Origin: Pseudooceanicola sp. HF7
GTDB taxonomy: Bacteria; Pseudomonadota; Alphaproteobacteria; Rhodobacterales; Rhodobacteraceae
Length of the DNA stretch: 64,000 nucleotides
Direction of reading: 5' to 3'
Assembly: GCF_011806405.1 (NCBI RefSeq)
Contig: NZ_JAATOW010000008.1
Span: 62,001-126,000 of the forward strand
The notes under the pieces are model-generated. The model was not told the origin of the DNA and did no database searches. It saw only the letters and a list, made by a program, of their open reading frames with translations. Below, piece after piece: positions 39,069-46,723 of this stretch (positions are counted from its first letter, which is position 1; every line of letters begins with the position of its first letter). The position numbers were made by a program, and so were the translations under genes.

Positions 39069-39187
39069 GGTGCCCTTGTATCCCGAACGCCCATGACACG
39101 CCAAGAGGTCGCCCCGGCCCGTGCGAAATTGCCGCAAAGCCCAGGACGGCTTGCCTTGGGGGTGGGATTACTCTACCGCTCGCGCCG

Positions 39188-39363
39188 CTTCGGTCCGGGC
39201 CTTGCCCGGTGAATAGGGAATGCGGTCAGGGGGACCCCCAATGCCGCGACTGCCCCCGCAACTGTAGGCGGAGAGCGAAGCCGGACAATGTCACTGCCTC
39301 CGCAGCTTTGGGGTGGGAAGACCCGGCCAAGCGAGGACCCGCAAGTCAGGAGACCTGCCGAAG
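39188..39363 (+). promoter_or_regulatory. Cobalamin (AdoCbl) riboswitch
   Basis: The conserved elements appear in order: GGTGAATAGGGAATGCGGT, CCGCGACTGCCCCCGCAACTG, AAGCCGGACAATGTCACTG, GGGAAGACCCGGCC and the B12 box AGTCAGGAGACCTGCC (39344-39359). The closing P1 helix CTTCGG/CCGAAG (39188-39193 with 39358-39363) frames it. It should shut off the btuB-btuF-btuC-btuD operon when cobalamin is plentiful. Confidence 0.96.
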
Positions 39364-39470
39364 TCGATCACCCGTTCCGGGCGCGGGGTGCGCCAGGGGC
39401 AACGGACCTTCCGTAGAGGTGGCAAGGCAACCCTCCGGGCCGGAAACTGTCCGGGATCCCAGTGACTGCG

Positions 39471-39502: not shown

Positions 39503-41335
39503 ATGACCAAGAAACTTATCGCGGCTTTCGCCGCCTCTACCTGCCTGACGGCCTGCCTTCTGGCACCGGCTATGGCCCAGGAGATCACCACGCTGGATGA
39601 GATCAGCGTAACGGCCAACCGTGGAGAGACCGAGGCCGCCCGCGCCGGCGCCACGGTCGAGATCGTGACCCGGGAGGACCTGCAAGAGGCCGGTGATGCC
39701 CGCCTGGTCGATTACCTTGCCACGCTGCCGGGCCTAAGCGTCACCACGGCGGGTGGTATCGGGAATGCCACGACCCTGCGCATTCGCGGTGCGGGTGGTG
39801 CTTATTTCAGCGTGCTGATCGACGGGATCGACGTGAATGACCCCTCGGCCTCTCAGAACTCCTTCAACTTCGGGTCGCTGACCACCGCCGATATCGGCCG
39901 TGTGGAAGTGCTGAAAGGCGCGCAATCGGCGCTTTACGGGTCCGAGGCGATCGCGGGCGTGATCTCCATCTCGACCAATCAGGCGACGGAAATGGGCCTG
40001 TCGCGCAACTACGCGCTGGAATACGGCAGCTACAACACCAGACGTTTCAGCCTGAACCAAAGTTACATGGGAGCGCGGGGCACCTACGCTGTGACCCTGT
40101 CCCACGTGCGCACCGATGGCTGGTCCAGCGCGGATGAGAAAGACGGCAATACCGAGGCCGACGGACATGAGGGCACGCGGCTGTCCTTCACCGGCGTTTA
40201 CGATCTGACTGACAGCGTGACGGTGGGGGGCGCGGCCTTCTGGCAGAAGACCGAAACCGAGTACGACGAATATGGCTCCGGCCCGATGGACGGCAGCCCG
40301 GACGAGAGGAACAGGGCAACCTCTTACGGGGTGCGGGGCTTCGTGAAGGTCGAAGGCGATGTGTTGGCGCAGGAATTCTCTGCCCAGTTCTATCAGATCG
40401 ACAGGGAAAGCTGGGGCACGGATAATTGGGGATCTTCCTACTACCCGAACCTTGGCACCCGGAAGGCACTGGCCTATGGCGCAAGCATGGATCTGTCGCC
40501 CAATGTGATGCTGGCCTTCGGAGGGGACGCCACGCGGGAAGGCTACCGCGCGGATGACTTCTATGTCGAAAGCGACATCATTGGGGCCTACGCGGAAACC
40601 CGATGGGCGGCGCTGCGGAACTTCGACGTGGTGGCCTCTGTCCGGCGGGATGAGCATTCTGTTTTCGGCGGAGAGACCACCGGACGGCTGGCCATGGCCT
40701 GGCGCCCAAAAGAAGACATCACCGTTCGCGCCTCGGCCGGGACGGGGTTTCGAACGCCTTCGCTATATGAGCTGTACGACCTGACCTACGGAAACAGCAG
40801 CCTCACGCCTGAGACATCGCGCAGCTTCGATCTGGGCATCGAAAAGCGCTTCGACGCGGGCTTTGCGAAGGCGACGCTGTTTCGGATGGAAATCACGGAC
40901 CTGATCGACTGGATTGGTGGCGGCTACGTTCAGGTGCCCGGCACCAGCGATATGCAGGGGCTTGAGCTGTCCGGCGGTTGGGCTTTGAACGAAAGCCTGC
41001 GTCTACAAGGCAGTTATACATGGACAGAGGCCAGCGATGCCGCGGGCGATCGGCTGGATCGTGTGCCCCGCAACGACCTGGTGCTGCGTCTTTCAGCAGA
41101 TCTGAGCGATGAGTTGAATTCGAACCTGTCAGTGCGTCACGTAAGTGACCACCTGGACCGCGGAACGCCGCTGCCGGACTACACGCTTGTAGACCTGTCC
41201 GTTGCCTATGGTATCTCCGATAGAAGCGAGGTTTACCTTCGCGTCGTGAACCTTCTGGACGAACAGTACCAGACGGTGCGGGGCTATGGTCAAAGCGACA
41301 GGGCACTTTATGTCGGCATTCGCGGCAGTTTCTAG
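39503..41335 (+). CDS. btuB: TonB-dependent outer-membrane receptor, cobalamin type (BtuB-like)
   Basis: A 610-residue outer-membrane receptor: signal peptide (about 1-25, ending APAMAQ), TonB box TLDEISVTA, plug domain (VEIVTREDLQEAG, LRIRGAGGAYFSVLIDGID, VEVLKGAQSALYGSEAIAGVI) and a 22-strand barrel ending in an aromatic residue (IRGSF). The cobalamin riboswitch upstream and BtuFCD genes downstream make cobalamins or cobinamides the likely cargo. The frame is open back to 39209 through the riboswitch, but ATG 39503 with GGAAGG and the signal peptide is the start. Confidence 0.93.
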   Translation: MTKKLIAAFAASTCLTACLLAPAMAQEITTLDEISVTANRGETEAARAGATVEIVTREDLQEAGDARLVDYLATLPGLSVTTAGGIGNATTLRIRGAGGAYFSVLIDGIDVNDPSASQNSFNFGSLTTADIGRVEVLKGAQSALYGSEAIAGVISISTNQATEMGLSRNYALEYGSYNTRRFSLNQSYMGARGTYAVTLSHVRTDGWSSADEKDGNTEADGHEGTRLSFTGVYDLTDSVTVGGAAFWQKTETEYDEYGSGPMDGSPDERNRATSYGVRGFVKVEGDVLAQEFSAQFYQIDRESWGTDNWGSSYYPNLGTRKALAYGASMDLSPNVMLAFGGDATREGYRADDFYVESDIIGAYAETRWAALRNFDVVASVRRDEHSVFGGETTGRLAMAWRPKEDITVRASAGTGFRTPSLYELYDLTYGNSSLTPETSRSFDLGIEKRFDAGFAKATLFRMEITDLIDWIGGGYVQVPGTSDMQGLELSGGWALNESLRLQGSYTWTEASDAAGDRLDRVPRNDLVLRLSADLSDELNSNLSVRHVSDHLDRGTPLPDYTLVDLSVAYGISDRSEVYLRVVNLLDEQYQTVRGYGQSDRALYVGIRGSF

Positions 41336-42143
41336 GATTATCGGCGCGGCGCTCTTTCTGGGCGCCGCGCCGGGCCTGCTGGCGGCAGGCAATCCCCCCA
41401 AGCGGGTGGTATCCATCAACCTGTGCACCGATCAGTTGGCGATGTTGCTGGCCGCGCCGGGCCAACTGATATCTGTCTCCGACTTGGCGGTTGAACCGCG
41501 CAGCTCTGCGATGGTGGAAGAGGCCAGGGCCTACCCGATCAACCACGCTGGCGCGGAGGAGGTCTGGCTGATGCAGCCCGACCTCGTCCTGGCCGGCGGC
41601 TATACCTCCCGCGCAACGGTTTCCATGCTGCGGCGGCTGGGCCGCGAGGTGCTTGAGGTGCAACCGGCCTACAGCCTGGCCGACATTCGCGACCGTCTGG
41701 CCCGGATCGGCGCGGCGCTTGGCCGCGAGGTACGGGCGGAGGCGCTGATCGCTGATTTCGATGCCCGGCTGGAGGTCCTGCGGGCCGAGGTGGCGCGCAG
41801 CCCCTCTGCCGCGATCTATTACGCGAATGGTTATACCACCGGCGATCGCACCCTGGCCGGAGAGATCCTGATGGCCGCCGGGTTCTCCAATATCGCCGGG
41901 GACATGCGCGGCGGCCACCTGCCGCTGGAAAAGCTGGCGATGGCAGATCCGGAGGCCCTGATCACCGGTACGCCCTATCCCGGGGCTTCCCGATCCGAAG
42001 CGGTGCTTGCCCATCCGGTTGTACAGGCAATCCGGGATCGGCGCGCCTCTCACCCGGTCGCGGATCGCGACTGGCTGTGCGGCACGCCCTACGTGCTGCA
42101 GGCGGTAGAGGAGCTTGCCATCTTCCGGAAGGAGATCGAATGA
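41310..42143 (+). CDS. btuF: Cobalamin ABC transporter periplasmic binding protein (BtuF-like)
   Basis: A 277-residue helical-backbone (TroA/BtuF-type) binding protein. After a signal peptide (MSAFAAVSRIIGAALFLGAA) comes KRVVSINLCTDQLAMLLAAP, EEVWLMQPDLVLAGGYTSR and ALITGTPYPGASRSE. It hands corrinoids to the BtuCD permease. The start overlaps the end of btuB by 26 bp (an ATG at 41286 is also possible) and its stop overlaps the permease start (ATGA), so the operon is tightly coupled. Confidence 0.9.
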   Translation: MSAFAAVSRIIGAALFLGAAPGLLAAGNPPKRVVSINLCTDQLAMLLAAPGQLISVSDLAVEPRSSAMVEEARAYPINHAGAEEVWLMQPDLVLAGGYTSRATVSMLRRLGREVLEVQPAYSLADIRDRLARIGAALGREVRAEALIADFDARLEVLRAEVARSPSAAIYYANGYTTGDRTLAGEILMAAGFSNIAGDMRGGHLPLEKLAMADPEALITGTPYPGASRSEAVLAHPVVQAIRDRRASHPVADRDWLCGTPYVLQAVEELAIFRKEIE

Positions 42144-43123
42144 CCCCGGTACTGCGGATCCTGATCCCGCTGGTGATCTTGCTGGCGCTGGTGTCGCTTG
42201 CATTGGGACCGGCTGGGTTGGGCCTGGGCGAGAGCCTGCGCGCGCTGGTGCTGGGCGGCGATGGCCCGGCGGTCTTGGTCATGCGCGAGATCCGCCTGCC
42301 TAGGGTCCTGCTGGCGCTGATGATCGGGGCTTCGCTTGGCCTGTCCGGCGCGGCGATGCAGGGCTTTCTGCGCAATCCCTTGGCCGAGCCGGGGATCATA
42401 GGGGTCTCCGGCGCAGCGGCCTTTGGCGCTGTTCTGGCGTTGCAAACAGGCTTTGCCGCCCTCTTTGCGCTGGCCCTTCCGCTGGCAGCGCTGGCCGGCG
42501 CGCTGGTGGCGGTCTTGCTGCTCGTGGCGCTGGCGGGGCCGCGCGGCGGGTCGCTGACGCTGATCTTGGCGGGCATCGCGATTTCGGCCATGGCCGGGGC
42601 GCTGACATCGCTGGTTCTGAACCTGTCGCCCAACCCCTATGCCGCCGGAGAGATCGTCTTTTGGATGATGGGCTCGCTTGCGGATCGGTCAGTGACCCAT
42701 GTGATGCTGGCGCTGCCCTTCACACTGCTGGGGTGGCTCCTCTTGCTGCGCTCTGCGCGGGGGCTCGAGGCGCTGACACTGGGCGAGGACGCCGCCGAGG
42801 GGCTGGGTATCGATCTGACGCGCCTGCGCTGGCAGGTGGTATTGGGGACGGCAGCGGCGATCGGCGCGGCGACGGCGGTGGCCGGTGTCATCGGCTTCGT
42901 CGGCCTGGTCGTTCCACATCTGCTGCGCGCCCGCGTGGCCGGGCGGCCGGGGCGCCTTCTGGCGGTCTCTGCCGTGGGCGGGGCGGCGATGCTGCTGGCG
43001 GCGGATATTGCCGTGCGCCTGATCGCCCCGGACCGGGACCTGAAACTCGGCGTTCTGACGGCCCTGATCGGGGCACCCTTCTTCCTGCGCCTGCTCTGGC
43101 AAATGCGGAGGGCGCGCGCGTGA
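42140..43123 (+). CDS. btuC: Cobalamin ABC transporter permease (BtuC/FecCD family)
   Basis: A 327-residue permease with about ten TM helices. Family signatures: RLPRVLLALMIGASLGLSGA, MQGFLRNPLAEPGIIGVSGA and VAGVIGFVGLVVPHLLR. It forms the inner-membrane channel for corrinoid import. It overlaps btuF by four bases upstream and the ATPase gene by four bases downstream. Confidence 0.94.
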   Translation: MTPVLRILIPLVILLALVSLALGPAGLGLGESLRALVLGGDGPAVLVMREIRLPRVLLALMIGASLGLSGAAMQGFLRNPLAEPGIIGVSGAAAFGAVLALQTGFAALFALALPLAALAGALVAVLLLVALAGPRGGSLTLILAGIAISAMAGALTSLVLNLSPNPYAAGEIVFWMMGSLADRSVTHVMLALPFTLLGWLLLLRSARGLEALTLGEDAAEGLGIDLTRLRWQVVLGTAAAIGAATAVAGVIGFVGLVVPHLLRARVAGRPGRLLAVSAVGGAAMLLAADIAVRLIAPDRDLKLGVLTALIGAPFFLRLLWQMRRARA

Positions 43124-43869
43124 GCCTGCTTCTGATCCGTGATCTGAGCGTTGAACTGGCCGAGCGCCCGGTATTTTCCGGCGTTTCCTTCGAGCTGCGC
43201 GAAGGTGAGTTGGTAGGGCTGATCGGCCCGAACGGCGCGGGCAAGACCACCCTGATGCGCGCGGCCATGGGGCTCTTGCCCTTCAGCGGTGAGAGCTCTC
43301 TTGCGGAGCTTTCGCCGCAATATCGCGCCCGCCATGCCGCATGGTTGCCCCAACAGAGAGAGATCGCTTGGCCGGTTTCCGTTGAGGACCTCGTCGCGCT
43401 TGGCCGCCTGCCACATGGCACCGGTGGGGCAGAAGCGGATCGCCTGGCCGTGGATTCCGCCCTGGACCGGCTTCAGCTTGACCCGCTGCGCCACCGGGAT
43501 GCCACTCAGCTTTCTGGTGGGGAACAGGCCCGCGCGTTGATTGCCCGCGCCCTTGCCCAGGAAAGCCGCTTGCTGCTGGCAGATGAGCCAATCGCCGGTC
43601 TGGATCCTGCCCACCAGATCGCCGTGATGGAGGTCTTCGCGGATCTGGCGAAAGAAGGGCATGGGCTTCTGGTCTCTTTGCATGACCTGGGGCTTGCGGC
43701 GCGTCATTGTACCCGGCTGATCCTGGTGGCGGAGGGCGGCATCCTGGCCGACGGCCCGCCTGCAAAGGTGCTTGTGCCGGAGCTGCTTGCGCGGGCCTTC
43801 CAGATCACCGCTATCCACGAAGACACCCCGGATGGTCCGGTCTTCCAGCCGCTGCGCGTGCTGAAATAA
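43120..43869 (+). CDS. btuD: Cobalamin ABC transporter ATP-binding protein (BtuD-like)
   Basis: 249 residues: Walker A GPNGAGKTTLMRA, signature LSGGEQARALIARALAQ, Walker B LLLADEPIAGLDP and switch histidine VSLHDLGLA. It powers the corrinoid importer. The GTG start overlaps the permease stop (GTGA). The stop TAA overlaps the remains of cbiZ. Confidence 0.94.
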   Translation: MSLLLIRDLSVELAERPVFSGVSFELREGELVGLIGPNGAGKTTLMRAAMGLLPFSGESSLAELSPQYRARHAAWLPQQREIAWPVSVEDLVALGRLPHGTGGAEADRLAVDSALDRLQLDPLRHRDATQLSGGEQARALIARALAQESRLLLADEPIAGLDPAHQIAVMEVFADLAKEGHGLLVSLHDLGLAARHCTRLILVAEGGILADGPPAKVLVPELLARAFQITAIHEDTPDGPVFQPLRVLK

Positions 43870-44200
43870 GCGCGCGCTTCCGGGCGCCCTGGCTTGAATT
43901 CGACCTGGGGCAGGAGATGCAGGTTCTCATCTGGGCCACGCCGCCCCGGTTTCGTCGCCACCAGAAGGATCCTGTGGCGCGAAGTGCGCAATGCCGACCG
44001 GTCCTGCCACGGGCACCGGCACCGATTGCATCGCCGTCGCCGCACCCGCAGGTCAGGGGCGTCACGCCGGGCTGCAAACCGCCAGCGCAGAAGCGGCGGT
44101 CCAAGCGGTCCTGAGCGCCACGCGCGCCGGCGTCGCCAGGTGGATGCAGGAAGCGCGACCTGCGGCGCCCGCGCAGCGGCAAGGCGGGATTCATCCTTGA
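43866..44200 (+). pseudogene. cbiZ: Decayed adenosylcobinamide amidohydrolase (cbiZ) remnant
   Basis: Pieces of a CbiZ protein can be read in three successive frames. Frame A (from 43866): SARFRAPWLEFDLGQEMQVL then IWAT. Frame B (about 43935-43998): RRPGFVATRRILWREVRNAD. Frame C (43994-44200): PTGPATGTGTDCIAVAAPAG, then HAGLQTASAEAAVQAVL and ending at TGA 44198. CbiZ is normally about 220-240 residues; only about half remains, with the middle missing between NAD and PTGP. The expected ATGA overlap with btuD reads ATAA, so the start is also lost. CbiZ cleaves adenosylpseudocobinamides during corrinoid salvage. The three-frame match is from memory of the family; the disruption is seen directly. 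Confidence 0.78.
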
Positions 44201-44222
44201 GTTGCTTTGCGCGGCAAAAGAA

Positions 44223-44237
44223 TTAACAACTCATTAA
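44223..44237. promoter_or_regulatory. CtrA-type binding site upstream of the GGDEF-EAL gene
   Basis: TTAA-CAACTCA-TTAA is an exact match to the full CtrA recognition pattern TTAA-N7-TTAA, in an otherwise GC-rich region between the cbiZ remnant and the c-di-GMP gene. CtrA controls motility and c-di-GMP genes in Rhodobacterales; the assignment here is from pattern and context. Confidence 0.6.
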
Positions 44238-44515
44238 TCAATCACGCGGACACTCGTCGCGTAGGAAAGTCCCGCCGAACCGGTGAGATGCCCGTCGCGC
44301 AGCCAGGCTGCTGCATTGGCGGGCTCGTATGATTGTCCTGACCTATGGCCCCTGAAAGCGGCCCGCAGGGGCAGTCATCACCGAAAGGCGGGCCTGCGAC
44401 GGGACCGCAAGTTCAAGCGGGCCGGTGCCCCGTGCAGGAGTGGGAATGACAGATCTGTCCATGGCAAGGGCACAGCAGGGGCCGGGCTTGATTGCGGGGC
44501 TCCGGGGGGACCCGA
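44238..44515 (+). other. Long GC-rich leader of the GGDEF-EAL gene
   Basis: About 280 bases without a convincing gene. A nested hairpin is visible at 44290-44324: outer GCCCG/CGGGC and inner GCAGCC-A-GGCTGC. Several frames are open through the region but look like random GC-rich reading. It does not match a riboswitch class that I recognise, including c-di-GMP classes. Confidence 0.35.
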
Positions 44516-46723
44516 ATGGGACAATCCACGAAAGACGGGACGATTGAAGGGCGTGATGCTCAGCAGGACCGGGTGGCGCATCGCCAGCCTCGACGTTCGG
44601 ATGGGCAATGGTTTGATGCGGTGGACGGCGCCGGGGCAAGGGTGGCATCCGGGCCTGATGGCGACCCTCAACCGGAGTTCGATCCAGAGGCCGAATATGC
44701 GTCCGACCTGTCGCAGGAGCCGGGGGAAGATACCCCGCGCGACAGGCCTCGTGGACCGCGGGGTGCCCGCATGATCGGCGGAGATGGGTTCGTTCCGATG
44801 CAAACGCTCGACCTGGGGCTGGACGGCTTGACCCGGTCTCTTGATGCCGCGCTCGAACTGGCTCGCAGCACCACGGATGCGCGCTGTGCCGTGCTGCTTC
44901 TCAACCCGGCTCTGGTTGCCAGAACCGGGGTTCCCGTCATGCCTGTCCAGCCGGGCGTCGCCGAGGTCGCCAGCAGCTTTCCGGAGGCCGAGGAGAAAGA
45001 AAGCTTCAATCCGATGATATGCCATCTGGGCGAGGTAGAGGCAGACATCACGGCGCTGCGCGACCTGGCCTGGAACAGGCTTCTAGACCTGGCGGACGCC
45101 AATCTCGATCATGACGCGCGCGGCTTGGCCCTGCAGGCAGAGGCCACAGAAATGCATGAGTTGGGCGACCCGACTCCGGCGCGTGCGCTGACGCGTGTGC
45201 TGTACCTGCAGGACGGGCAATGTGCGGGCATGCTGGCCCTGGGCTACGCTCCGGGCAATGCCAGCGCTGACGTCTCCTCCGATCACCCGGACGATCCCCC
45301 TCTGGTCCCCTTCACGCCGCTGACGCTGGCAGATGTCGAACGGGTCGCTGACAACCTGGAGTTCCTGCTTTCGACTTGGTGGGCACGGCTGGATCTGCAG
45401 CGCGACTTGGCCGCAAGTCGCAGCCGCGCACTGCGCTTGCAACGGATCTCGGAGCAGGATCCGCTGACCGGCCTGGAGAATATCTCTACCTTCGAAGGCA
45501 AGGTGCGCGAGCGTCTGGAGTTGAAAGGTGAGCCGGGGGCCTTCATCCTGATCGACGTGGACCACTTCAAGACGGTCAACGACATGTACGGCCACCAGTT
45601 CGGGGACAATTACCTGAAGACCGTGGCGCAGGCATTGCTAGATACCTCGCGCGCAAATGCCATCGTGGGCCGGATTGGGGGGGATGAATTCGCCGTCTTC
45701 GCAGATCTGCCCAAGATGGGTGAGAGCTACCTGAAATCGCTGATGACGATGTGCCGGATGACGATCCTGCGGGCCTCTGCCTACCTGAACAAGCCGGATC
45801 TTGGGCGGGTCAGCATTGGCGCGGCGGTGACGCCCGAGCATGGCGATGATTACGACACGCTTTATCACCGCGCGGACCTGGCGCTTTATGCCTCCAAGGA
45901 ATCCGGGCGCAGCACGGCGACGGTCTACAGCGAGGACGTGGCAGAGCGTTTCGATCACGCGCAGCTTGCCAAGACTTTCCAGGCGGCGTGCCGGGCCGGG
46001 CAGGTGGTGCCCTACTTCCAGCCCATGGTGCAGCTGTCCACGGGTGAGACCCACGCCTACGAGGTCCTTTGCCGCTGGGAAAACCCGCGACACGGTCTGC
46101 TGTCCCCGGCGACGTTCTCATCCATCTTCACCGATCACGGCCTCGCCACGCTGCTGACGCGGCATATTATCCAGAGCTCACTGCAGCATTTCACCAGGGC
46201 CCGCCTGGCGCTGGACCGGCAAGTGAAGCTTTCGCTGAACCTGACCTATTTCGACCTCATGGACCGTGAGTTCGTCTTCGATTTCCAGGCCGCGCTGTCA
46301 GATTTCGGGGTAGATTGGTCCGCGATCATCATCGAGGTCCAGGAAACGGTGGTCATGGGGGAACCCTCCGGCCAGGTCTTCCGCACCCTGGAGGAACTGC
46401 GCCGACGCGGTGCGGAGATCGCGCTAGACGATTTCGGCATGGGCTACAGCGGTTTGCGCCATCTGAAGAGCTGGCCGGTGGATATCGTCAAGATCGACAA
46501 GTCCTTCATCCGCGATCTCTGCACCGATTACCGCGACCGGGCCATTGTCAGTTCGATCGTGCAGCTGGCCAAGGACCTTGGGTTCCGGGTCATCGCGGAA
46601 GGGATCGAGAACAGCGAACAGGCTAAGCGCCTGCAAGAGATGGGCTGCGACATGGGGCAGGGGTTCATCTACGGCCGTCCGCTGGGCCCCACTGGATTTG
46701 CCACCCGCCTGATAACCGACTAG
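44516..46723 (+). CDS. GGDEF-EAL protein (c-di-GMP cyclase/phosphodiesterase)
   Basis: 735 residues, cytoplasmic. An unassigned, possibly GAF-like N-terminal half (about 95-290) precedes a GGDEF domain (about 320-480, active site RIGGDEFAVF) and an EAL domain (about 490-735). In the EAL part the metal and catalytic residues are kept: YEVLCRW, LNLTYF, VQETVV, DDFGMGYSGL, VKIDKSFI, AEGIEN and QGFIYGRPL. The inhibitory RxxD site before GGDEF is missing (RANA). Either activity may dominate. Start at 44516 follows GGGGGGAC; it is convergent with the histidine kinase gene. Confidence 0.92.
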   Translation: MGQSTKDGTIEGRDAQQDRVAHRQPRRSDGQWFDAVDGAGARVASGPDGDPQPEFDPEAEYASDLSQEPGEDTPRDRPRGPRGARMIGGDGFVPMQTLDLGLDGLTRSLDAALELARSTTDARCAVLLLNPALVARTGVPVMPVQPGVAEVASSFPEAEEKESFNPMICHLGEVEADITALRDLAWNRLLDLADANLDHDARGLALQAEATEMHELGDPTPARALTRVLYLQDGQCAGMLALGYAPGNASADVSSDHPDDPPLVPFTPLTLADVERVADNLEFLLSTWWARLDLQRDLAASRSRALRLQRISEQDPLTGLENISTFEGKVRERLELKGEPGAFILIDVDHFKTVNDMYGHQFGDNYLKTVAQALLDTSRANAIVGRIGGDEFAVFADLPKMGESYLKSLMTMCRMTILRASAYLNKPDLGRVSIGAAVTPEHGDDYDTLYHRADLALYASKESGRSTATVYSEDVAERFDHAQLAKTFQAACRAGQVVPYFQPMVQLSTGETHAYEVLCRWENPRHGLLSPATFSSIFTDHGLATLLTRHIIQSSLQHFTRARLALDRQVKLSLNLTYFDLMDREFVFDFQAALSDFGVDWSAIIIEVQETVVMGEPSGQVFRTLEELRRRGAEIALDDFGMGYSGLRHLKSWPVDIVKIDKSFIRDLCTDYRDRAIVSSIVQLAKDLGFRVIAEGIENSEQAKRLQEMGCDMGQGFIYGRPLGPTGFATRLITD

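Follow-up and report, generated by a model that had tools for sequence, protein, structure and literature searches.

Organization of the locus

The window, i.e. the whole 64 000-nucleotide stretch of Pseudooceanicola sp. HF7 DNA that was analysed, contains a cobalamin riboswitch followed by four open frames for a transport system of the btu type and, directly behind the last of them, the remnant of a cbiZ gene (table 1). The riboswitch, which lies far above the gathering score of its family (31.5 bits), is the only Rfam match of the window at gathering scores. The btu names are based on Pfam families that are common to other metal-chelate transporters, with the riboswitch and the linkage to cbiZ taken into account. 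The arrangement is the one given in the initial annotation, which had been made from the DNA letters.

Table 1. Features of the riboswitch-headed operon and of the cbiZ remnant (window coordinates).
Feature	Position	Strand	Basis
Cobalamin riboswitch at operon head	39174..39376	+	RF00174, 124.6 bits
btuB-like TonB-dependent receptor, start codon inferred	39503..41335	+	PF00593 and PF07715; open frame from ATG
btuF-like substrate-binding protein, start uncertain	41286..42143	+	PF01497; open frame
btuC-like permease, start inside btuF stop (ATGA)	42140..43123	+	PF01032 FecCD, E 1.7e-80
btuD-like ATPase, start inside btuC stop (GTGA)	43120..43869	+	PF00005; 80% identity to G002; open frame
cbiZ pseudogene, whole	43866..44200	+	Homology to intact cbiZ of relatives, alignment, profile and shuffle control
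Piece 1, N-terminal frame, with ATA in place of the ATG/GTG of relatives	43866..43930	+	Alignment, profile
Frame-shift site, net 2 bases fewer than relatives	43930..43949	+	Alignment, gap counts
Piece 2, RRPGFVATRRILWREVRNAD	43939..43998	+	Profile of intact relatives
Large-deletion junction TGCCGACC, NAD in one frame, PT in next	43992..43999	+	Comparison with relatives
Piece 3, C-terminal frame, 69 codons, open to stop, ATG at junction	43991..44200	+	PF01955, 25.1 bits; lineage profile, 66.0 bits

The remnant consists of three CbiZ-like pieces that follow btuD (43120-43869) in successive reading frames and in the order of the family. A PF01955 search of the whole genome returned one match, at this site, which falls in the last, C-terminal quarter of the profile (23.2 bits at E 1.4e-4, covering positions 143-190 out of 191), and neither this score nor that of the 69-codon frame reaches the 27-bit cut-off of the family. 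With a lineage profile built from ten intact cbiZ products, nine from the genus and one (G026) from another genus, the genome gave matches at two places, both within the remnant, and piece 3 was placed at profile positions 154-214 (66.7 bits), piece 2 at 9-47 (32.8 bits) and piece 1 at 4-25 (20.9 bits). As a control, 1000 dinucleotide-preserving shuffles of 43870-44200 were translated in three frames: the best of the 3000 shuffled frames scored 7.5 bits, against 66.0, 32.5 and 20.3 bits for the real frames of pieces 3, 2 and 1.

No single open frame spans the PF01955 domain, profile positions from about 48 to 153 are missing, and the remnant measures approximately 335 nt compared with 215-227 codons in intact cbiZ genes. 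A usable start codon for cbiZ is absent, the expected site at 43866-43868 reading ATA, and no structured RNA was detected in the remnant or the spacer (Rfam, 43800-44700, E up to 1). These results bear out the initial annotation with respect to the three pieces and their order, their similarity to CbiZ in all three frames, the length of about half that of the family and the lack of a start codon; no other cbiZ was found in the genome by the PF01955 search. From the three-frame profile matches, the shuffle control and the uniqueness of the match, the region 43866-44200 is a genuine pseudogene, the history of which can still be read.

Intact cbiZ in relatives

PF01955 matches were found in 10 of the 22 genomes of the genus, that of HF7 among them, and an intact cbiZ starting in the btuD stop codon is present in nine of the 22, and also in G026. 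A close btuD (at least 66% identity, the present one included) occurs in 12 genus genomes. The cbiZ directly behind it is intact in nine of these and broken in the present one; for the remaining two (G001 and G021), a profile search of approximately 1.5 kb downstream of btuD gave no cbiZ match, even with E values of up to 10 allowed. Thus, as the initial annotation had led one to expect, the same position behind btuD carries an intact cbiZ in ten relatives. The start of cbiZ overlaps the btuD stop in all ten of them (ATG in seven, GTG in three); the remnant lies directly 3′ of btuD as in these relatives, yet its overlapping start codon has become ATA.

The survey was widened to 80 named loci with a related btuD, 45 of which have cbiZ behind it and 35 of which do not, one of the latter having less than 600 bases of sequence downstream of btuD. 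The joint between the two genes at the 45 cbiZ loci is ATGA in 30, GTGA in 10, TTGA in two, CTGA in two and GTAA in one.

Nine of the 35 cbiZ-less loci have, at the stop codon of btuD, a frame for a second binding protein, which is of the same type in all nine (L080:6756-7538, L100:6756-7541, L107:6744-7535, L079, L090, L096, L103, L111 and L116). It matches PF01497 (Peripla_BP_2) in the three tested and has, judged by eye, no obvious N-terminal signal peptide, so that the protein in the place of cbiZ is possibly a cytosolic corrinoid-binding protein. At four other cbiZ-less loci (L098, L099, L115 and L120), an ExbB/TolQ-like protein is found directly behind btuD (PF01618 in L099, the one tested), and is likely an energy partner of the TonB receptor.

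The three lesions and their age

The start site is best compared with that of G002, the nearest relative as judged by btuD (80% identity) rather than by a species tree. There the joint reads ctgcgcgtgctgaaaTGA (ctgaaATGA) and cbiZ begins at that ATG; the window has ctgcgcgtgctgaaaTAA (ctgaaATAA). The ancestral ATGA postulated in the initial annotation is therefore present in G002, and the loss of the start by one base change is further backed by the ten relatives that start cbiZ in the btuD stop. The predicted indel near 43940 was located to 43930-43949, where the window is 2 bases shorter than all eight relatives of a multiple alignment; pairwise alignments show the 2-nt gap in seven of the eight, the G007 pair being misaligned. 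Finally, the distance between the NAD and PTG codons, which amounts to 341 bases in nine of ten relatives and 359 bases in G002, is missing from the window at TGCCGACC, as had also been proposed. In every relative this distance equals 2 mod 3, in agreement with the switch of reading frame at the junction.

How the large deletion came about can be stated with less assurance. The word TGCCGACC occurs once at the junction, in keeping with the proposed slippage between two copies. It is found in exact form on the 5′ side in four of ten relatives (G002, G009, G017 and G007), on the 3′ side in one (G011) and on both sides in none, G017 being the nearest with 7 of 8 bases. Thus, the junction fits the proposal, but a pair of exact copies is not seen in any relative, and slippage or recombination between short repeats would be the likely route.

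With respect to the columns that are invariant in the ten intact genes, pieces 1 and 2 show no change (at 6 and 9 sites, respectively) and piece 3 differs at 4 of its 23 sites; when each intact gene is left out in turn, the corresponding numbers of differences are 0 to 1, 0 to 4 and 0 to 1. Of the four changes in piece 3, one is due to the codon that the junction created, and the remaining three replace H by Q, G by A and G by V. A further invariant residue, an S adjacent to the frame shift that was not among the columns counted, is I in the window. The dN value to G002 is 0.226 for the pieces and 0.163 for btuD, and dN between the pieces and the nine other relatives ranges from 0.250 to 0.431, with values of 0.142-0.323 for the 17 intact pairs listed: the rate is modestly raised, overlaps that of intact pairs and is too noisy for dating. 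Since few invariant sites have changed, the decay looks recent. Most of the divergence appears to have accumulated while the gene was still constrained, and relative to the divergence of the genus the loss looks recent.

Origin of the remnant

The region is almost certainly a cbiZ that was inactivated fairly recently and that stood last in a btuB-btuF-btuC-btuD-cbiZ operon under riboswitch control. The intact product would be an adenosylcobinamide or cobamide amidohydrolase. By analogy with the family, its role would be to open imported cobamides with an unsuitable lower ligand as a step towards rebuilding them. Inactivation comprised, in whichever order, the loss of the start codon, a net 2-base loss shifting the frame and the removal of 341-359 bases of the middle, the last probably arising between two short TGCCGACC copies. 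Uptake and all seven tested families of cobalamin synthesis are kept, while the reworking step, which is more dispensable to a producer, is lost.

The quality of the underlying data has to be considered, because the genome is a draft (4.27 Mb, 74 contigs, 97.09% complete) and the lesions are seen in one strain, in an assembly. If cbiZ were in truth intact, however, errors of assembly or sequencing would have to account for three different lesions within 335 bases (a base change, a 2-base loss and a 341-359-base loss) and for changes at three more sites that do not vary among the ten intact relatives, next to a btuD frame that is open; this explanation is accordingly very improbable. Chance similarity in a GC-rich spacer, which the shortness of pieces 1 and 2 might bring to mind, has a negligible probability in view of the shuffle control and of the synteny with intact cbiZ in relatives.

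A different possibility is that the 69-codon frame, with its ATG at the junction, is expressed as a small protein that serves some separate function. The frame is indeed open to its stop and retains 19 of the 23 invariant sites of piece 3. However, 30 of the 70 columns invariant among the ten relatives (one of the 70 being M1, entered as M for the three GTG starts) fall in the missing stretch, an invariant H and two invariant G residues are changed, and among 395 genomes of the family one other C-terminal-only match is known (G308), in an operon that has itself probably collapsed. A small protein is thus hardly credible, slightly less so than an error in the data, and decay of cbiZ is the reading adopted in what follows.

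Distribution of cbiZ in the family and relation to CobN

The ten-member profile finds matches in 72 of the 395 family genomes, of which 70 are near full length and two, that of HF7 and that of G308, are decayed. Four of the 70 (G140, G266, G299 and G309) were inspected, the other 66 being taken as they stand in the match table. Three of these four had been flagged for stops inside the gene and were considered as pseudogenes, a classification rejected on finding the domain open in one frame behind btuD (G140, G266 and G299). G309 was rejected as a decayed case since its two halves share a single frame of 435 codons; the 4.5 kb read there gave no btuD match. In G308 (L159:4036-4869), a TonB plug fragment of 148 codons is followed, after approximately 170 bases, by a frame of 74 codons that contains the tail of cbiZ (PF01955, 42.2 bits). 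With that fragment, the tail and no btuD match within the 8 kb read, the operon has probably collapsed.

The relation between cbiZ and cobalamin synthesis was examined in the 149 family genomes that are at least 97% complete, with the HF7 genome excluded. CobN is absent from 9 of 26 genomes with intact cbiZ and from 13 of 122 without it (Fisher p 0.0044, not corrected for relatedness), two of the nine, G176 and G183, having been inferred as the remaining CobN-negative genomes. Within the genus, the corresponding values are 3 of 9 and 0 of 12 (p 0.063, not significant and likewise not corrected for relatedness). On the other hand, 17 of the 26 carriers of intact cbiZ have CobN, so that the gene does not mark non-producers exclusively. 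In the genus, three genomes that are 98-100% complete (G010, G012 and G017) lack CobN and keep an intact cbiZ, CobH being also absent in G010 and G012; these three are probable salvagers.

Comparison with known systems

The closest known counterpart is CbiZ (PF01955) of Rhodobacter sphaeroides, which the present locus resembles in the sequence of the pieces and in the position beside a cobalamin transporter. In the available part of the report on that enzyme, it hydrolyses pseudocobalamin, and not cobalamin, in vitro and starts pseudocobalamin remodelling (PMC7733943), whereas here the gene is broken, with no start, a shifted frame and the middle missing. Co-location of cbiZ with transporter genes is described for many bacteria in the accessible sections of another study, which also covers cbiZ variation in a Chlorobium population; the likeness is that the gene is carried by part of a population, the difference that variation in coverage was seen there and a readable pseudogene is seen here (PMC8620254).

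G308, from another genus of the same family, shares with HF7 a cbiZ C-terminal tail at the end of a probable former btu operon, but the tail there follows a TonB plug fragment whereas the transporter frames are open here, and the two decayed independently. In the literature on cbiZ and on Pseudooceanicola with cobalamin, as far as its texts were accessible, no report of the present locus was found, which implies no claim for sources elsewhere.

Consequences for cobamide metabolism

Seven families were sampled from the cobalamin pathway, rather than the pathway as a whole, and all seven are present in the genome: CobH (PF02570), CobN, CbiB, CobU/P, CobS, the cob(I)yrinic acid adenosyltransferase and BluB. 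On this ground the strain probably makes its own cobalamin, and would probably be a producer that has kept the kinase route for cobinamide. The initial annotation, correct on nearly every other point, had concluded that the strain is limited to corrinoids needing no side-chain remodelling; this was overstated, given the seven families and the probable synthesis of its own. From what is known of the family, the capacity lost would be the remodelling of imported foreign cobamides, uptake being retained. In the available portion of one survey, CbiZ was annotated in 9.1% of bacterial species, producers and cobinamide auxotrophs alike (PMC6461909).

Six cobalamin riboswitches were found in the genome: one each at the btu operon of the window, at BluB, at a second binding protein with a FecCD permease, and ahead of CobW and CobN. 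The remaining two form a back-to-back pair at G000:C59 (L147:9141-9710), flanked by a Meth_synt_2 protein and an NrdAB-type ribonucleotide reductase.

It may be, though less probably than not, that producers in the family repeatedly shed cbiZ while non-producers keep it, so that cbiZ would mark dependence on foreign cobamides and the present locus would be caught half-way through the transition, with the transporter kept. The loss itself is of an ordinary kind and calls for no new mechanism. The locus is a clean example of the loss of the remodelling step, with its lesions still readable and with uptake and, probably, cobalamin synthesis kept, and the broken cbiZ here, set against the intact gene of G002, provides a natural comparison for the benefit of CbiZ to a marine producer.
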